From contig NZ_MTBC01000004.1 of the NCBI RefSeq assembly GCF_002072105.2, positions 62,001-126,000 of the forward strand: a DNA stretch of 64,000 bases. The letters are read 5' to 3'. This document shows, in pieces, positions 4,063-12,652 of this stretch. Positions within the stretch are counted from its first letter, which is position 1, and each line of letters begins with the position of its first letter. The translations under genes and the position numbers were made by a program. The notes below the pieces were generated by a model. That model was given only the letters and a program-made list of their open reading frames with translations. It was not told the origin of the DNA and searched no databases. This DNA comes from Croceivirga radicis. Its GTDB lineage: Bacteria > Bacteroidota > Bacteroidia > Flavobacteriales > Flavobacteriaceae.

Positions 4063-4659
4063 CTAATGTCTATCTATAAGTACCTTTTCAATATCTTTTA
4101 AGGTATACCCTTTAGCTTGCAATAAGATTAAATAATGAAAAAGCAAATCAGCACTCTCATTTAAAAACAATTCTTCATTATCGTCTTTTGCTTCAATTAC
4201 CGTTTCTACAGCTTCTTCCCCTACTTTTTGAGCAATTTTGTTTATACCTTTTCTAAAGAGGGATGCTACATAGCTTTTTTCATCCTCTTTATTTTCTTTT
4301 CGGGAAGTAATAACATTTTCTAACTCAGACAAAAAGCTAAAATTTGCTACGTTTTCTTCGTCCCAACAGGTGTCTGTACCTGTATGGCAAGTAGGCCCAA
4401 TTGGTTTCACTTGCACTAACAGGGCATCCTTATCACAATCCACCTTCATAGAAACCAGTTCTAAAAAGTTGCCACTTTCCTCTCCCTTGGTCCATAATCT
4501 ATTTTTAGAACGACTAAAAAAAGTGACTTTACCTGTTTCTTGGGTTTTATTAAATGCTTCTTGGTTCATATACCCTAGCATCAACACGTTTTTTGTGCGT
4601 GCATCTTGAATTATTGCGGGTACTAAACCGTCCTTATCTTTTGAAAAATCGATTTTCAT
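4063..4659 (-). CDS. hisIE: Bifunctional phosphoribosyl-AMP cyclohydrolase / phosphoribosyl-ATP pyrophosphatase
   Basis: This 198-residue fusion catalyses steps 2 and 3 of histidine biosynthesis in the cytoplasm. Residues 1 to about 105 are the cyclohydrolase (HisI): FFSRSKNRLWTKGEESG, the metal-binding DCD at 74-76, and zinc cysteines C91 and C98 in CHTGTDTCW. The C-terminal part is the MazG-like pyrophosphohydrolase (HisE) with KVGEEAVETVIEAK. It is the last gene of the his operon, 61 bp after hisF. Its stop abuts a convergent gene, which leaves no room for a terminator between them. Confidence 0.96.
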   Translation of the reverse strand: MKIDFSKDKDGLVPAIIQDARTKNVLMLGYMNQEAFNKTQETGKVTFFSRSKNRLWTKGEESGNFLELVSMKVDCDKDALLVQVKPIGPTCHTGTDTCWDEENVANFSFLSELENVITSRKENKEDEKSYVASLFRKGINKIAQKVGEEAVETVIEAKDDNEELFLNESADLLFHYLILLQAKGYTLKDIEKVLIDRH

Positions 4660-4720
4660 TATGCTGTATTCTCTTGTTTATTTTATATAATCTTTTTGAA
4701 TTTACATAGTATGTGAACCA

Positions 4721-5476
4721 TCAAATCCGTACGGGTATTCCTTCTTTTTCTAATTGTTGTTTTAAATCTGGAATGGCTATTTCTTTAAAGTGAAATACAC
4801 TAGCCGCTAAAGCTGCATCTGCTTTACCTTTTATAAAGGTATTTGTAAAATGAGAAACCGCTCCCGCACCACCAGAAGCAATTACAGGAATGTTCACCAA
4901 ACTAGAGAGTTTTGCTAATTCCCCATCAGCAAAACCATTTTTAGTGCCGTCATGGTCCATGGAGGTAAACAGAATTTCGCCAGCGCCACGCTGCTCTACC
5001 TCTTTTGCCCAGTCAAACAAATCCAATTCCGTAGGTACTTTACCGCCTACCAAATGCACTTTCCAGCCATCATCGGTTTTACGGGCATCTATGGCCACAA
5101 CAATACATTGCGAACCAAATTTGGCAACCAACTCATTGATTAAATCTGGATTCTTAACCGCTGAGGAATTGATAGAAACTTTATCAGCGCCGTTTTTAAG
5201 TAAGATATCCACGTCTTCCACGGAAGAAATTCCACCCCCCACAGTAAAGGGAATATTTAATTTTTCGGCAACATTGTAAACTAGTTCGGCTAAAGTTTTA
5301 CGTTTTTGTTCAGTAGCAGAAATATCGAGAAAAACGAGTTCATCTGCACCCTCATCCGCATAACGCTGTGCCAATTCTACAGGGTCACCCGCATCACGTA
5401 AATCCACAAAGTTGACACCTTTTACGGTTCTACCGTCTTTTATATCTAAACAGGGTATAATTCTTTTTGTAAGCAT
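4721..5476 (-). CDS. hisF: Imidazole glycerol phosphate synthase, cyclase subunit
   Basis: This 251-residue TIM barrel has the catalytic aspartates at D11 (PCLDIKDG) and D130 (VAIDARK). It also has phosphate-binding glycine loops such as TVGGGISS and IASGGAG. It works with HisH to turn PRFAR plus glutamine-derived ammonia into imidazole glycerol phosphate and AICAR. It lies 14 bp after hisA and before hisIE, the usual operon order. Confidence 0.97.
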
Positions 5477-5490
5477 AATTTATATCGTTA

Positions 5491-6264
5491 TTACAACGAA
5501 AGAATATATCCTTCCAATTGTTTTAAACTAATTCTATTTTCATAAATGGCTTTGCCAATAATTACTCCTTCACAGCCTATTTCTTTTAATTTTGGAAGCT
5601 CATCAAAAGTAGAAATGCCACCACTGGCAATCAATTTTATTTGATGCTCAAAATCTTGTACACCACTACCCGTAATTTCTGTTGTTACCGTTTTTGTTTC
5701 TTTTAATATTTTCTGATACAAATCAAATGCCGGCCCTTGCAACATGCCATCTTTCGAAATATCTGTACAAATAACATAAGATATGCCCTTGGCTTGATAT
5801 GCTTTTATAAAGGGAATTAATTCTTGGTCCGATTCTTCTTGCCATCCAGAGACCGCAATTTTCTCATTATTGGCATCCGCACCGAGAATTATTTTATCGC
5901 TACCATGTTGTTTGATCCACCCTAAAAAAGTGTCAGGGTCTTTAACCGCAATACTACCACCAGTAATTTGATTTGCACCACTTTCAAAGGCAATACGTAA
6001 ATCTTCATCTGTTTTTAATCCGCCTCCAAAATCTATTTTTAAATCAGTTTTTGTTGCAATTTGTTCTAATACCTTATGGTTTACAATATGCTTGGACTTA
6101 GCACCATCTAAATCCACCAAATGTAAGTATTGAATTCCGTGATCTTGAAACTCTTTAGCTACTTCTAGCGGATTCTCATTGTATATTTTTTTGGTGTCAT
6201 AATCACCCTTAGACAAGCGAACACATTTACCGTCTATAATATCTATTGCTGGGATTATTCTCAT
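5491..6264 (-). CDS. hisA: ProFAR isomerase
   Basis: HisA (257 residues) isomerises ProFAR to PRFAR. Visible marks are the first catalytic Asp D8 in PAIDIIDG, the loop DFGGGLKT, the second catalytic Asp D168 in CTDISKDGM, and the phosphate-binding IASGGIST. It is slightly longer than the ~245-residue norm. The extra length is around residues 190-208 (a Thr-rich stretch plus SGVQDFEH) just before the IASGG strand. The gene sits between the GNAT gene and hisF in the operon. Confidence 0.96.
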
Positions 6265-6292
6265 TTTTTATAGTATTAAGTACTTAAAACAG

Positions 6293-6712
6293 CTAATCTA
6301 ATTTTGCCTTATCTATTGCCATCCATAATTCTGAATTGCCTACAGATTTAAAACCATATTTTTCATACAGTTTATGCGCATCTTTAGTTTTAAGACTAAT
6401 GGTTAGTACATTTTTTAGGCTATCATCTTCTAAAATATGGGCAACTAGCCATTTGCCCAATCCTTTACCTTGATATCCATCAAATATGATAACGTCCATG
6501 ATATAAGCAAAAACAACTTGGTCTGTTAGTACTCTTGCAAAACCTACCTGTTCCATATTATTGTTGTAAACACCAAAGCAAATCGTGTTTTCAATGGTAG
6601 TTTTAGTTTGCTTTTCGGTTCTATATCCACCCCAATACGATGTTTTTATCGTCTTATGGATTTTATCGAATTGCAATAAATTCTTATCCTTGGAAATGGT
6701 GTAACCAATCAT
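6293..6712 (-). CDS. GNAT-family N-acetyltransferase inside the his operon
   Basis: This 139-residue single-domain GNAT protein has the acetyl-CoA-binding motif A (GYQGKGLGKWLVAHIL, with the Q/RxxGxG/A core), a preceding strand VVFAYIMDVIIF, and a C-terminal YEKYGFKSVG typical of the fold. The acyl-acceptor is not predictable. It lies between hisH (2 bp downstream of it) and hisA (28 bp upstream), so it should be co-transcribed with histidine biosynthesis although it is not a known pathway enzyme. Confidence 0.85.
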   Translation of the reverse strand: MIGYTISKDKNLLQFDKIHKTIKTSYWGGYRTEKQTKTTIENTICFGVYNNNMEQVGFARVLTDQVVFAYIMDVIIFDGYQGKGLGKWLVAHILEDDSLKNVLTISLKTKDAHKLYEKYGFKSVGNSELWMAIDKAKLD

Positions 6713-6714
6713 AA

Positions 6715-7293
6715 CTAGAGACTCAGGAAGTTATTAAGTATTTGAGCGCCATATTGGCCCGACTTTTCTGGGTGAAACTGCACCCCGTAAAAGTTGTCTT
6801 TTGCCAAAGCTGCTGCGTATTCTAGTCCGTAGGTACAGGTAGCTATGGTTTCCTCACACTTTGGAGCATAAAAACTATGAACCAGATATATAAAATCGTT
6901 TTCCAAATTTTTAAACAAGGGCGACTGCAGATTTTCAATCTTATTCCACCCAATCTGAGGTACTTTTACATTAGAATCAAACTTAATTACATCCACGTCA
7001 AATATGCCCAACCCCTTAGTATTGCCTTCTTCCGAAGCATTACACATAAGCTGCATACCCAAGCAGATACCCAAAACAGGTTGTTTTAGGGTTGGAATAA
7101 CAGTGTCTAAACCGCTTTCTCTTAGCTTACGCATAGCGGAACTTGCTTCCCCTACTCCAGGAAAAATAACTTTTTCTGCCTTACGGATAACTTCTGGGTC
7201 ATTACTTAGCACAGCACTTACCCCCAAACGTTGAAAGGCAAATTTGATGCTTTGTATATTCCCAGCTCCATAATCTATGATTACCAAACTCAT
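6715..7293 (-). CDS. hisH: Imidazole glycerol phosphate synthase, glutaminase subunit
   Basis: HisH (192 residues) is a class I glutamine amidotransferase that feeds ammonia to HisF. The catalytic triad is visible: nucleophile C77 in GICLGMQ and H174/E176 in QFHPEKSG. An oxyanion-loop-like FPGVGEA precedes it. The start overlaps the end of hisB by 4 bp, so translational coupling is likely. Confidence 0.97.
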
Positions 7294-8426
7294 AACATTC
7301 CTTTTGTAGATGGTAAAATCATTTTTTCTTTGTCTTGTTTTACCGCCATTTTTATAGCCTTTGCCAACGCTTTAAAGATTGCCTCTATTTTGTGGTGCTC
7401 GTTGGTACCTTCTGCCTTAATATTTAAATTCGCCTTTGCACCATCTGTAAACGATTTAAAGAAATGATGAAACATTTCTGTTGGCATATCTCCTACCTTT
7501 TCTCGTTTAAAATCGGCTTCCCAAACCAACCAATTTCTACCACCAAAGTCTATAGCTGCAGAAGCCAAACAATCGTCCATAGGCAAACAAAATCCGTAAC
7601 GTTCTATGCCCAACTTATTTCCTAGCGCTTTGTGGAAGACTTCGCCTAGGGCTATACCGGTATCTTCAATGGTGTGGTGTTCATCTACCTCCAAATCACC
7701 ATTCACTTTTATATCCAAGTCCATTTGACCATGGCGTGCAATTTGGTCTAACATATGGTCAAAAAACTTTAAACCAGTATCTATACTAGCTTTACCAGTA
7801 CCATCTAGATTTACTTTAATATGAATTTTGGTTTCCTTGGTTTCTCTTTTTATTTCGGCAACTCTATCTTGTACCTTTAAGAACTCATAAATAGCTTGCC
7901 AATCATTGCTTTCTAAAGCAATGTAGTCATCCAAATCTTTACGGTCTACTGTAATTTCGCCAGTACCCAAATTGGTGTTATCATTGATAAAAATACCCTT
8001 TGCACCTAAATTTTTTGCCAACTCCACATCGGTTAGCCTATCTCCTATTACAAACGAATTTTCTAAGTCGTACGCATCAGAAAAATATTCCGTTAACATT
8101 CCAGTGCCTGGTTTACGGGTATCTGCATTTTCATGCGGAAAAGTTCTATCAATATAAACCGCATCAAAGTGTACGCCCTCATTTTCAAATGCCGTGATGA
8201 TAAAGTTATGCACGGGCCAAAATGTATCTTCAGGAAACGCTTCTGTACCCAAACCATCTTGATTGGTTATCATGACCAAGGTATAGTCTAACTCTTTAGC
8301 AATTTTACCCAAATAGGTAAACGCTTTAGGATAGAAAATCATTTTTTCAAAGGCATCTATTTGCTCATCAACAGTTTCTTTGATGATGGTGCCATCACGG
8401 TCTATAAATAATACTTTTTTAGCCAT
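7290..8426 (-). CDS. hisB: Bifunctional histidinol-phosphatase / imidazoleglycerol-phosphate dehydratase
   Basis: This 378-residue fusion carries steps 6 and 8 of the pathway. The N-terminal HAD phosphatase (to about residue 165) has the nucleophile motif FIDRDGT with D9 and D11. The C-terminal dehydratase has the two metal-binding motifs DEHHTIEDT and NEHHKIEA. A small linker contains [12 protein letters not shown], where stand-alone HisB enzymes normally begin. It directly follows hisC, with no spacing between the stop and the ATG. Confidence 0.97.
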
Positions 8427-9473
8427 TTATAGGGCTTTAAGGGTTGAAATTAGTTTGTCGTTCTCTTCTATTGTACCAACGGTTAGTCTAAGCGTATTTT
8501 CGCACAATGGTTGTGTACTCCGGTTTCGTATTACGATTCCTTTTTCTAACAATTGGTTGTATCGCTTATTGGCATCATCTACTTTAATTAAAATGAAATT
8601 AGCGTCGCTATCATAAATTGTTTCGATGTACGGAATTGTAGCTATGGCTTCTGATAATCGCTTACGTTCTTTAAGTAAGGTTTGCACCTGCTCTTTTACC
8701 GTTTCATAATTCTCCAAAGCTTCAAATGCCTTTTGTTGCGTCAATTCATTTACGTTATAGGGCGGTTTAATTTTCTTTAAAACCGCTATGATTTCTTCCG
8801 AAGCAAAACACAAGCCAAGACGAATACCCGCCATAGCAAAAGCTTTGGAAAGTGTCTGTGTTACAATAAGATTAGGGAAATCGTTTAAACGAAAACTCCA
8901 ACTACCATTTGTTGCAAAATCGATGTAGGCCTCGTCTACAACAACTAATCCAGGAAACTCAAACAACAAGCGTTCTATCGCTTCAAAATCAAAACTATTT
9001 CCGGTTGGATTGTTTGGGGTGCACAAAAATAACAACTTGGTATTTTCATCTGTAGCAGCCAAAATTTCATCCACATTGGGTTGAAACTTATCTGTTAGCA
9101 GTACTTCTCTATTCTCAATATTGTTGATACCAGAAAGCACCTTGTACATACCGTAAGTTGGTGGCAAGGTTATAATATTGTCTTTCCCTGGTTCACAGAA
9201 AGCTCTAAAAATTAAATCGAGTACTTCATCGCTACCATTACCTACTAAAATCTGACAGGCCTCTACTTGCTTTACCTTAGAAATCAGTTGTTTTAAATTA
9301 CGCTGGTGTGGATCTGGATATCGATTTAAACCATTTTCAAACGGATTTTCATTCGCATCTAAAAAAACCATCTGTTCACCAGAAGAAACATACTCGTCTC
9401 TAGCAGAAGAATATGGTTTTAATGCCTTTACGTTTTCACGAACCAACAGGTCCAAATTAAATAGTGTATTCAT
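8427..9473 (-). CDS. hisC: Histidinol-phosphate aminotransferase
   Basis: This 348-residue fold-type I PLP enzyme converts imidazole acetol phosphate to histidinol phosphate using glutamate. Visible motifs are DANENPF near residue 40, VGNGSDE at 78-83, TPNNPTG, DEAYIDF, and the PLP lysine K210 in TLSKAFAMAG. It lies 2 bp after hisD and is immediately followed by hisB. Confidence 0.97.
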   Translation of the reverse strand: MNTLFNLDLLVRENVKALKPYSSARDEYVSSGEQMVFLDANENPFENGLNRYPDPHQRNLKQLISKVKQVEACQILVGNGSDEVLDLIFRAFCEPGKDNIITLPPTYGMYKVLSGINNIENREVLLTDKFQPNVDEILAATDENTKLLFLCTPNNPTGNSFDFEAIERLLFEFPGLVVVDEAYIDFATNGSWSFRLNDFPNLIVTQTLSKAFAMAGIRLGLCFASEEIIAVLKKIKPPYNVNELTQQKAFEALENYETVKEQVQTLLKERKRLSEAIATIPYIETIYDSDANFILIKVDDANKRYNQLLEKGIVIRNRSTQPLCENTLRLTVGTIEENDKLISTLKAL

Positions 9474-9475
9474 TC

Positions 9476-10762
9476 CTATTCCTCTAGAGCTTTAAGGCGC
9501 AAGGTAACCGCATTTTTGTGTGCTTGTAACCCTTCTGCTTCTGCCATTAATTCTATACTTTTTCCTAGTTTTTTAATCCCTTCCTTGCTCAAACGTTGGA
9601 ACGTCATGCTCTTAGTAAAACTGTCAAGATTAACCCCACTATATTGCTTAGCATAACCGTTAGTTGGTAAGGTATGGTTGGTGCCAGAGGCATAATCTCC
9701 CGCACTTTCTGGCGTATAATTGCCTATAAACACAGAACCCGCATTATAGGTGTTTTCTACATAAAAATCTTCATTTTCTACACAAACAATGTAGTGTTCT
9801 GGTGCGTATTGGTTGATTATAGCCAACGCAGTTTCATCATTATCTACAATAATTAGCTTGCTATTTTCGATTGCCTTTGCTGCAATTTCTTTTCTTGGCA
9901 AAACCGCCAATTGCTTTTCCAATGCTACAGTAACCTTAGAGGCAAAGGCTTCTGATGTGGTTACCAAAACCACCTGACTATCCACCCCGTGTTCTGCCTG
10001 ACTCAATAAATCTGAAGCTACAAAATCGGCATTTGCAGTATCATCTGCCACTACTAACAATTCGCTAGGACCTGCCGGCATATCTATACTTACTCCAAAT
10101 TTGGTTGCCATTTGTTTGGCAGTGGTTACGTATTGGTTCCCAGGGCCAAATATTTTATACACCTGTGGCACGCTCTCCGTACCAAAGGTCATTGCACCAA
10201 TAGCTTGTATACCACCAACCTTTACAATTTTGGTAACCCCGCATAATTGAGCAGCAAATAAAATAGCAGGATTCAATTTCCCTTCTTTATTAGGCGGGCT
10301 ACATAGTACAATTTCTTGACAACCTGCAATTTTTGCAGGTAGGGCTAGCATTAAAATGGTAGAAAACAAAGGTGCTGTGCCACCAGGAATGTAAAGACCA
10401 ACTTTTTGTATAGCTCGTTTTTCTTGCCAACAGTCTACACCTGGCATGGTAGTAACCGCTACGCGTTCTGTTTTCTGTGCTTGGTGAAATGCTTCAATAT
10501 TAGCTTTAGCAACTTTAATCGCCTCTTGCAAATCTGTTGAGACCAAGGATACACCCTCTTTAATTTCTTCTTCAGAAACCAATAAGTTATCCAGATTGGC
10601 ACCATCAAATTTTTGAGTGTACGCCTTTAAGGCTTCATCTCCTTGGTCTTGAATAGCATCAAAAACCTCTTTTACAATGGGCTCTAAAGCTTCATAAGAT
10701 TGTGTAGGTCTTGCTAAAATGGTAGCCCATTCACTTTTAGGCGGATTTGTATAACTTTTCAT
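9476..10762 (-). CDS. hisD: Histidinol dehydrogenase
   Basis: HisD (428 residues, the normal length) oxidises histidinol to histidine in two NAD-dependent steps. Seen directly are the glycine-rich VGLYIPGGTAPL, the GPGNQYVTTAK segment, MPAGPSELLVVAD, the zinc-site text SQAEHGVDSQ, and the catalytic APEHY and GTNHTLPT motifs. It is one base from hisG and two from hisC. Confidence 0.98.
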   Translation of the reverse strand: MKSYTNPPKSEWATILARPTQSYEALEPIVKEVFDAIQDQGDEALKAYTQKFDGANLDNLLVSEEEIKEGVSLVSTDLQEAIKVAKANIEAFHQAQKTERVAVTTMPGVDCWQEKRAIQKVGLYIPGGTAPLFSTILMLALPAKIAGCQEIVLCSPPNKEGKLNPAILFAAQLCGVTKIVKVGGIQAIGAMTFGTESVPQVYKIFGPGNQYVTTAKQMATKFGVSIDMPAGPSELLVVADDTANADFVASDLLSQAEHGVDSQVVLVTTSEAFASKVTVALEKQLAVLPRKEIAAKAIENSKLIIVDNDETALAIINQYAPEHYIVCVENEDFYVENTYNAGSVFIGNYTPESAGDYASGTNHTLPTNGYAKQYSGVNLDSFTKSMTFQRLSKEGIKKLGKSIELMAEAEGLQAHKNAVTLRLKALEE

Positions 10763-10763
10763 T

Positions 10764-11618
10764 TTAAAGCACCATTTTTTCTATAGGACAAACTAAAATA
10801 CCTTCTGCCCCAGCCTGTTTTAATTCGTCTATAACTTCCCAAAAAGTATCTTTATTAATCACTGTGTGTACAGAGCTCCAACCCTCTTCTGCCAAAGGCA
10901 AAACCGTAGGGCTACGCATACCTGGTAAGATGTTGAGTATTGTATCTAAACTATTATTAGGTACATTCATTAAAACGTACTTGCTCTGCCTTGCTTTTAA
11001 AACGGATTGAATACGAAATAATAATTTATCTAGAATAACCTTGCGTTCGTTATCAATCTTTGGAGAAACCGCTAAAACTGCCTCACTCTTTAGTAAAACT
11101 TCAACTTCTTTAAGATTATTCTTGAACAACGTGCTACCACTAGAAACAATATCACAAATAGCGTCTGCAAGACCAATATTTGGTGCAATTTCTACAGAAC
11201 CATTAATTAGATGAATATCCGCATTAATTCCATTTTGCTCTAGAAATTTATTTACGGTGTTTGGGTATGAGGTAGCAATACGTTTACCTTCAAAATCTTT
11301 AAACGAAGTGTACTGTTTACCTTTAGGAATAGCCATACTTACCTTGCATTTAGAAAACCCTAGTTTTTCCGCTACGGTAATGCCTTCCCCTTTTTCAAAC
11401 AGTACATTTTCACCAATAATTGCAATGTCTACCACACCATCTTTAAGGTACTGTGGAATATCTCCGTTACGCAGGTAAAAAACTTCCATAGGAAAATTAC
11501 GGGCAGAGGCCTTTAATTGGTCTTTACCATTATCTATGGATACGCCGCAATTCTTTAAGATATCTAGAGAATCTTCATTTAAACGGCCGCTTTTTTGAAT
11601 AGCAATTCTTAGTTTCAT
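10764..11618 (-). CDS. hisG: ATP phosphoribosyltransferase, long form
   Basis: HisG (284 residues) catalyses the first committed step, ATP plus PRPP to phosphoribosyl-ATP. The length and the C-terminal ACT-like regulatory region (from about residue 210, with GMRSPTVLPLAEEGW and AEGILVCPIEKM) mark it as the HisG-long class, which is normally feedback-inhibited by histidine and does not need HisZ. The periplasmic-binding-like catalytic core includes SGSTLFKN, the PRPP-loop region. It is the first structural gene, 120 bp after the stop of the leader peptide. Confidence 0.97.
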   Translation of the reverse strand: MKLRIAIQKSGRLNEDSLDILKNCGVSIDNGKDQLKASARNFPMEVFYLRNGDIPQYLKDGVVDIAIIGENVLFEKGEGITVAEKLGFSKCKVSMAIPKGKQYTSFKDFEGKRIATSYPNTVNKFLEQNGINADIHLINGSVEIAPNIGLADAICDIVSSGSTLFKNNLKEVEVLLKSEAVLAVSPKIDNERKVILDKLLFRIQSVLKARQSKYVLMNVPNNSLDTILNILPGMRSPTVLPLAEEGWSSVHTVINKDTFWEVIDELKQAGAEGILVCPIEKMVL

Positions 11619-11677
11619 TTTAAGTTTACGTGTTTCGCTTTACGCTTGTTTTACTTTTCTTTTTCAGTTATAGACAT

Positions 11678-11707
11678 AAAAAAACCCGTTTGAATGCTCA
11701 AACGGGT
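11678..11707 (-). terminator. his attenuator terminator hairpin
   Basis: On the minus strand ACCCGTTTGA-gcat-TCAAACGGGT forms a perfect 10-bp stem with a 4-base loop, followed by seven T residues. It lies between the leader peptide and hisG, so its use would block expression of the operon. It is also the only strong terminator after the upstream prohibitin gene. Confidence 0.9.
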
Positions 11708-11752
11708 CTTTATTATTTTGATATACACAAAATACAGTTACCTCGCTTGAGC
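11696..11752 (-). promoter_or_regulatory. Candidate his antiterminator pairing
   Basis: GCTCAAGCG (11752-11744, inside the leader coding sequence) can pair over 9 positions (one G-T) with CGTTTGAGC (11704-11696), which includes the left arm of the terminator. The two structures are therefore exclusive. A ribosome stalled on the upstream His codons would leave GCTCAAGCG free. A ribosome reaching the stop codon would cover it and allow termination. The pairing was worked out by eye; no folding energies were computed. Confidence 0.75.
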
Positions 11753-11791
11753 GATTGTAAAAGTATGATGATGTACATGGTTTCTTTTCAT
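11738..11791 (-). CDS. hisL: his operon leader peptide
   Basis: A 17-codon open frame reads MKRNHVHHHTFTIAQAR and stop. Four of its first nine residues are histidine, three in a row (His-Val-His-His-His). It sits just before an antiterminator/terminator pair and hisG, the arrangement of a classical histidine-attenuation leader. The role in E. coli-type attenuation is established; its operation here is inferred from sequence layout. The ATG is 7 bp downstream of a TAnnTTTG promoter element, so the transcript leader would be very short. Confidence 0.9.
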   Translation of the reverse strand: MKRNHVHHHTFTIAQAR

Positions 11792-11798
11792 AATGCAT

Positions 11799-11825
11799 CA
11801 AAAGTAAAACGAAAATCTTTTACAA
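11799..11825 (-). promoter_or_regulatory. Candidate his operon promoter
   Basis: TACTTTTG (11806-11799) matches the Bacteroidota -7 consensus TAnnTTTG, and a TTG lies 16 bp upstream of it (11825-11823), slightly closer than the usual 19-21 bp. It falls in the 45-bp gap between the prohibitin stop and the leader ATG. Confidence 0.5.
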
Positions 11826-11836
11826 AAAAGAAAATT

Positions 11837-12652
11837 TTAGTTATTTCCTAAAATTAATGGTAAACCATCGTCTCCAGAACCAACTACTACCACTTTAGAA
11901 TTAGGGCTTTTAGCTAATTCTAACGTGGCTTCAATTCCTTTATCCTGTAGAATTTTATCTGTTAAAGAAGCGCTTAAAATTTTATTAGCGTCTGCTTTAC
12001 CTTGAGCTTCTATACGTTGACGTTCAGCTTCTTTTTCCGCGGTTACCAATCTAAACTCGTACTCTAAAGATTCTTGCTCTTGCTTTAATTTACGTTCTAT
12101 TGCGTCTTTTATTGTTGGTGGCAAGGTAACATCACGTACCAAAATTTCATCTAGCACAATAAATTGCTTGTCCACAATTTTTTTAGTTTCCTCAAAAATT
12201 TCACGTTGTATGGCATCTCGCTTACTAGAATACAATTGTTCTGGTGTATAGCGGCCTACAACACTTCTTGCCGCAGAGCGTATGGTGGGTAAAATAATCC
12301 GTTGCAAGTAATCTTCGCCAATTTCTTGGTGTAATTTACCTAAATTAACAATATCTGGTTTGTACCAAGCAGAAGCATCTAACTGAATATCTAATCCGTT
12401 AGAAGAAAGTACTTTCATTTTTTCAAAAATCTCTTGTCTTCTTACTTCATAAACATAAACTTTGTTCCAAGGAGCTACTAAGTGAAACCCTTCTCCTAAA
12501 GGCGGTTTTTCTGTTACTACACCACCTCCAAAGGTTTGATAGAGCACACCCGCCTCTCCCGATCCAATGGTAATGGCAGATTTTGATATTAATATGATTA
12601 ACAAAATAATTGCGAATACCACAGGTAAGGCAATCTTGGGTAATTTATCCAT
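11837..12652 (-). CDS. Prohibitin-like SPFH/band 7 membrane protein
   Basis: The 271-residue protein has one N-terminal membrane segment (about residues 8-24) and an SPFH/band 7 domain: GEAGVLYQTFGGG, VYVYEVRRQEI, then RSVVGRYTPEQLYS and the RQRIEAQGKADA coiled region typical of prohibitins. Such proteins form large ring or cage assemblies at the membrane and often shield proteases. It is the last gene of the fabG-VWA-prohibitin set, 10 bp after the VWA gene. No FtsH or rhomboid partner is adjacent. Confidence 0.85.
   Translation of the reverse strand: MDKLPKIALPVVFAIILLIILISKSAITIGSGEAGVLYQTFGGGVVTEKPPLGEGFHLVAPWNKVYVYEVRRQEIFEKMKVLSSNGLDIQLDASAWYKPDIVNLGKLHQEIGEDYLQRIILPTIRSAARSVVGRYTPEQLYSSKRDAIQREIFEETKKIVDKQFIVLDEILVRDVTLPPTIKDAIERKLKQEQESLEYEFRLVTAEKEAERQRIEAQGKADANKILSASLTDKILQDKGIEATLELAKSPNSKVVVVGSGDDGLPLILGNN

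Follow-up and report, generated by a model that had tools for sequence, protein, structure and literature searches.

Which kind of switch lies ahead of the histidine operon of Croceivirga radicis, and how far is it shared with other members of the phylum? The window, that is, the whole stretch of 64,000 nt of contig NZ_MTBC01000004.1 that was analysed, carries this operon on the minus strand. The first controlled gene is hisG (10764..11618), of the long form with the C-terminal domain, which matches TIGR00070 and TIGR03455 above cut-off. Gene order and profile matches place hisD, hisC, hisB, hisH, a small ORF, hisA, hisF and hisIE behind it (4063..10762, minus strand). The small ORF between hisH and hisA (6293-6712) is GNAT acetyltransferase-like, with all of its NCBIfam matches below cut-off. 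The element ahead of hisG is very probably a ribosome-mediated transcription attenuator of the histidine type. Its mechanism is ordinary, its covarying form is well supported across the phylum, and the new lead is an additional RNA strand, called region 5 here, which is found in relatives, outside the window.

The initial annotation, made from the letters of the DNA, had described a 17-codon leader with four histidine codons (HVHHH), a 10-bp terminator with seven T, and an antiterminator that excludes it; all these details hold. The leader ORF, MKRNHVHHHTFTIAQAR (11738..11791, minus strand), begins with the ATG at 11791 and ends with TAA at 11740-11738. Its sensor, His Val His His His (11765..11779, minus strand), has the histidine codons at 11779-11777 and 11773-11765, and the His cluster is kept in relatives. 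Such clusters are rare: of the window's 1044 ORFs of 6-30 aa that start with ATG, one has at least four His in seven residues, namely the hisG leader ORF itself, and when the 300 nt ahead of hisG were shuffled 5000 times, one shuffle reached this density.

A hairpin scan and the alignment of relatives place an intrinsic terminator with seven T behind the leader (11678..11711, minus strand). Its 10-bp stem, ACCCGTTTGA/TCAAACGGGT, closes a 4-nt loop and lies, with the T run, at 11707-11678; the seven T are at 11684-11678, the first of them paired, and A-T pairs lengthen the stem to 14 pairs (11711-11680). Two terminator-like sites were seen in 11400-12200 vs 0.3 expected in shuffles, the second being the same hairpin read from the opposite strand. 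The antiterminator joins region 2, GCUCAAGCG (11752-11744), which makes up leader codons 14-16, to region 3, CGUUUGAGC (11704-11696), a strand common to antiterminator and terminator, by nine pairs including one G-U; both regions are on the minus strand and were assigned by pairing and covariation. Because the antiterminator takes up the 5' arm and the loop of the terminator, the two structures are mutually exclusive. In the MFE and centroid structures, a leader hairpin (11721..11778, minus strand) pairs the His codons with sequence past the stop codon; it encloses the 5' strand of the antiterminator and, in this model, would leave the terminator free to form unless a ribosome stalls. Folding of the leader, which had been suggested as a check, gave a stable structure: the 188 nt of the leader reach -42 kcal/mol (z -4.15), and 0 of 200 shuffles were as good.

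The initial annotation had also placed the transcript start a few bases before the ATG, and a candidate promoter box would support this. A predicted sigma-A -7 box, TACTTTTG (TAnnTTTG; 11799..11806, minus strand), recognized by sequence and box spacing, ends 7 nt ahead of the leader ATG. In Flavobacterium psychrophilum this box is located at -12 to -5 (PMC9723704), so the start in the window is predicted at about 11794, with a 5' UTR of 3 nt, and the leader mRNA would be nearly leaderless. Over the 177 leaders of the comparative sample described below, the gap between box and ATG is bimodal, with one group at 7-8 nt and another at 17-21 nt; the shorter gap is found in 25 leaders with the exact box and in 51 with a relaxed box, these spacings being counted without a shuffle control. 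Leaderless mRNAs make up 5.5% in F. psychrophilum (PMC9723704), and Shine-Dalgarno sites are absent from Bacteroidota mRNAs (PMC6847099).

From these parts we infer the following course of stalling, coupling and termination. Transcription would begin a few bases ahead of the leader AUG, and a ribosome would trail the polymerase through the 17 codons. When charged tRNA-His is short, the ribosome would stall at the His codons with region 2 just beyond its front edge; region 2 would pair with region 3, the terminator would be blocked, and hisG to hisIE would be transcribed. When histidine is plentiful, the ribosome would reach the stop codon and cover region 2, region 3 would join its terminator partner, and transcription would end near 11678. 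The spacing agrees with this scheme, in that region 2 would be free with a ribosome on the sensor codons and covered with a ribosome at the stop. The gap between the last His codon and the antiterminator approximates the reach of a stalled ribosome, as given by the size of its footprint: it is 12 nt in the window, its median over 161 loci is 11, and 12 is the commonest value (31 loci). Region 2 begins within the leader ORF in 153 of the same 161 loci, and the conservation of the last leader residues (AQAR and similar) is explained by their encoding the antiterminator RNA strand.

For the comparison, DNA upstream of hisG was collected from 201 loci, of which 200 were used since L110 repeats L001. 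The duplicate was excluded from the counts of His clusters, box spacing, loop covariation, antiterminator permutation, gap measurement and flank control, and is included among the 155 loci searched for region 5. The window's genome and its relatives supplied 29 loci (hisG is present in 29 of 40 genomes), named records supplied 80, which are the best 80 of 585 confirmed, and draws from the class and phylum supplied 92 more; the sample is weighted towards Flavobacteriaceae. An ORF of 6-30 aa with at least three His in seven is present in the last 300 nt before hisG in 173 of 200 loci, whereas dinucleotide shuffles give 1.9 and the reverse strand 2, and at least four His in seven are found in 142 loci vs 0.1 in shuffles, so that the conservation of His codons for which the initial annotation had proposed to look is plainly seen. 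Widening the search to 450 nt and to ORFs of up to 60 aa gave 177 leaders with at least three His in seven, and no such ATG-started leader in the other 23 loci. Among these 23, L190 and L192-L194 have five His in seven in a frame that is open but has no suitable ATG; such an open-frame cluster was not found in the rest, including the very distant HisG branches L198-L201. A hairpin with a T-rich tail stands behind 174 of the 180 leaders that have at least two His in seven, the terminator search having failed or scored below 20 for some leaders. In Neptunitalea chrysea (L107) the attenuator has apparently decayed: the terminator is kept, the sensor is reduced to LHHYY, and no ATG-started leader was found.

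The antiterminator, too, has persisted while its sequence changed. An alignment of 115 leaders of the CGUUUGA type shows it paired in 93.0% of cells, whereas a shift by 1-3 columns leaves at most 48.3%; both sides have changed in 41 cells, and 0 of 500 shuffles were as high in pairing. Further pair types show no excess (12 vs 12.8 in shuffles), and 41 of 112 sequences do not form the outermost pair (columns 50/138). The terminator is paired in 99.6% of cells of this alignment, and the consensus fold recovers the terminator only, as is expected when the structures are alternatives. Of the two covariation tests, the stronger is the comparison of 47 loci with divergent terminators, where the energy of the own antiterminator is -13.46 kcal/mol vs -9.44 with permuted partners (sd 0.38; lowest of 5000 permutations -10.95) and 42 of the 47 own pairings beat the median swap. 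In the 114 loci that are alike the gain is small but clear (-13.57 vs -12.50, sd 0.13). Compensatory changes, the other comparative sign to which the initial annotation had pointed, are thus present. With a His-run ORF ahead of a his gene, an intrinsic terminator between the two, and an exclusive antiterminator that covaries, the comparison strongly supports the notion that attenuation by ribosome stalling would operate here as in Enterobacteria.

It is very improbable that the hairpin merely terminates the upstream SPFH/Band-7-like gene (11837-12652), that the His-rich ORF is there by chance and that hisG has its promoter further down. The hairpin does lie downstream of the stop of that gene, the genes share their direction, and the sole scored sigma-70-like site overlaps the end of the same gene; however, loci in which hisG stands behind a different upstream gene or a different terminator sequence still have the His cluster, the order of the parts and the antiterminator, and the rarity of such clusters in shuffles of the upstream region speaks against chance. 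Scarcely credible is a T-box that binds uncharged tRNA, or a histidine-binding riboswitch, in place of a translated leader, since, although both can control amino acid operons through a competing terminator, the conserved feature is a translated run of His codons that uses both CAT and CAC (679 and 115 across the sample), and no Rfam family reaches the gathering score in the window or in seven relatives, the best sub-threshold matches being far below cut-off. This holds for the T-box covariance model in the window and for the enterobacterial His operon leader, which is also not among the 25 matches up to E 10.

The histidine attenuator may be compared with enterobacterial hisL, where a His-codon leader is followed by an antiterminator that shares the 5' arm of the terminator and by an intrinsic terminator before hisG. 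The window has the same parts and the same logic. It differs in its shorter leader with four His rather than seven, in its nearly leaderless predicted start, and in its promoter of the Bacteroidota type, and no sequence relation between the two was found.

A hint of novelty in the initial annotation finds no support: the literature already has leader-peptide attenuation in flavobacteria, as well as a conserved element in the 5' region of hisG. In F. psychrophilum, clues for leader peptide attenuation are described upstream of amino acid operons, and the 5' elements at pheA and hisG are conserved in other genera and have no Rfam match (PMC9723704). They resemble the window's element in these respects, and in gene and bacterial family; a leader sequence, an antiterminator, a spread over the phylum and region 5 do not figure in the section of that paper on the 5' elements. 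Beyond it, we found nothing on a histidine attenuator of this phylum in the open-licence literature. A paper of 2010 added Firmicutes to Proteobacteria and Actinobacteria, until then, in its view, the sole groups with known leader peptide systems (PMC2965389). The present comparison places covariation-supported histidine attenuation across a phylum whose ribosomes use no Shine-Dalgarno sites, and a leader possibly translated from the very 5' end of the RNA would offer a handle on ribosome-polymerase coupling in Bacteroidota.

Region 5 is an antisense copy of the upper part of the terminator that lies, in many relatives, between the terminator and hisG. Against 200 shuffles of the terminator-hisG stretch it is detected in 80 of 155 loci at p<=0.01 and in 90 at p<=0.05, loci without a leader, with a terminator score below 20 or with less than 15 nt of downstream sequence having been kept out; the control flank, 60 nt ahead of the leader ATG, yielded 0 of 153 with 100 shuffles. 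Region 5 occurs in 51 of the 78 tested loci from named records (the best 80 of 585 confirmed) and in loci of at least six further family groups (L022, L023, L024/L143, L026, L113, L168); examples are the stretches L048:1904-1985 and L055:1895-1988. Its end is at most 20 nt from the hisG AUG in 71 loci, and at 12-16 nt in 58 of them. In these 71 the pairing begins sharply at the G of GUUUGA (position 0 is paired in 64 loci, position -1 in 3), spans the terminator loop and extends in about half of the loci into the 3' arm, leaving the CCC/GGG base of the stem free.

Our claim of covariation for region 5 rests on a test anchored by the stem arm alone, in which it follows the loop: the whole loop is paired in 28 of 58 loci, vs 9.2 on average and at most 17 in 2000 permutations confined to loops of equal length. 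The pairing energy, -18.73 for own and -13.19 for permuted partners (sd 0.31), is inflated, as the loci were picked for strong pairing. The terminator ends at most 32 nt from hisG in 38 of 91 loci without region 5 vs 0 of 71 with it, a contrast that is weak evidence because a short gap leaves region 5 no room. A 13-mer of region 5, sought in eight genomes, has 19 sites, 16 of which are the expected pair in the his leader; the three others lie outside it, two in genome G259 and one in G262.

The window's own copy is without region 5 (p 0.69). Among the 11 loci of the same genus, i.e., its own and those of ten further genomes, L005 and L006 gave p 0.005 and L004 p 0.04. We judged these three to be unrelated: the signal comes from GC-rich inverted repeats in an insert, the pairing takes in the CCC base too, and the distances to the AUG are 32, 16 and 32 nt. 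L006 is still counted among the 71 loci, and both L005 and L006 among the 80. The insert in L004-L006, of about 80 nt between terminator and hisG, resembles with its GC-rich inverted repeats a small mobile or repeat element.

Region 5 is transcribed after the terminator, and it therefore cannot decide termination. The likeliest role that these data suggest is a second, post-transcriptional gate on hisG, a function that we infer, as we do its sign. We tentatively propose, as a quite possible but by no means assured reading, that in Flavobacteriales and neighbouring orders a fifth strand, antisense to the terminator apex (the 5' arm from GUUUGA on, the loop and often part of the 3' arm), gates hisG translation on read-through or pre-existing mRNA, either as a cis pseudoknot or by pairing in trans with the terminated leader RNA. 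One leader peptide would then control transcription as well as translation without a Shine-Dalgarno site, and the window's genus would have lost region 5 or never had it. The free CCC/GGG base would suit a pseudoknot as well as trans pairing by terminated leader RNA. If functional, region 5 would make the element a compact two-level switch.

Two simpler forms of such a gate were rejected. As a means of sequestering the start codon of hisG, region 5 does no better than shuffles in 26 loci (mean z 0.32, none below -2); in the 45 loci where hisG begins with ATGAGTA, start-codon pairing does beat shuffles (mean z -2.36). Since this is confined to ATGAGTA genes, the conserved partner of region 5 is the terminator and not the start codon, and pairing with the latter may matter in some lineages only. 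Nor does region 5 appear as a stable cis partner: nested folding with ribosome masks keeps the terminator hairpin (probability >0.5) in 62-67 of the 71 loci, and gives terminator-region 5 pairing a probability >0.3 in only 5-11. This result speaks against a simple cis exchange; a pseudoknot form lies outside the reach of ViennaRNA, which cannot score one. As a bare duplex, pairing with region 5 is stronger than the terminator hairpin in 70 of 71 loci, which had been chosen for strong pairing.

With the terminator hairpin closed in most loci, intermolecular pairing is at least as imaginable, and a more specific alternative is a trans mechanism, with the terminated leader RNA serving as a small antisense RNA against hisG mRNA; we regard this as rather unlikely, if worth serious attention. 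The complementary part of region 5 takes in the terminator loop, and there is precedent in rnTrpL of Sinorhizobium meliloti, an attenuator RNA that acts in trans on trpDC mRNA (PMC7298713). In that system the leader RNA starts at the leader AUG, close to what is predicted for the window, and the terminated RNA is stable and regulatory (PMC7298713); it differs in responding to tryptophan and in having its target elsewhere, whereas region 5 would be a target within the same transcript. Against a trans-acting leader RNA stand the presence of the partner strand in cis and the 13-mer sites, from which no further trans target is apparent.

Less probable again is that template switching between inverted repeats, rather than selection on RNA pairing, has kept region 5 and its partner alike as a quasi-palindrome. 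By copying one arm onto the other, template switching can mimic covariation, and it requires that the partners be near each other, as region 5 and the terminator are. The sharp end of the match at the GUUUGA base, the near-fixed distance to the AUG and the empty control flank all argue against it.

The proposed gate on hisG also invites comparison with the LEU element upstream of leuA in Actinobacteria, where a leader ORF with sensor codons is likewise combined with long-range pairing that reaches the start region of the structural gene (PMC1262725). The LEU element, however, is a pseudoknot in which Leu codons pair with a Shine-Dalgarno box, and its authors thought classical attenuation unlikely (PMC1262725); region 5 is antisense to a terminator and involves no Shine-Dalgarno box. 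The open-licence literature yielded nothing on a terminator-antisense strand of this kind.

Other amino acid operons of the window's genome were inspected as well. Upstream of ilvD, no branched-chain leader was found among the ORFs listed. The pheA gene (L237, G000:C12 near 351749) is preceded by a Phe/Tyr-rich leader, MSKLYFWNRFYFYFFFQRGTGLF, of a kind present in 21 of 24 loci by a hand count without shuffle control. The pheA terminator ends close to the pheA ATG in L237 and its relatives (L222-L245), leaving no room for a region 5. Judging by its leader and terminator, this appears to be a second attenuator of the same design in the C. radicis genome.
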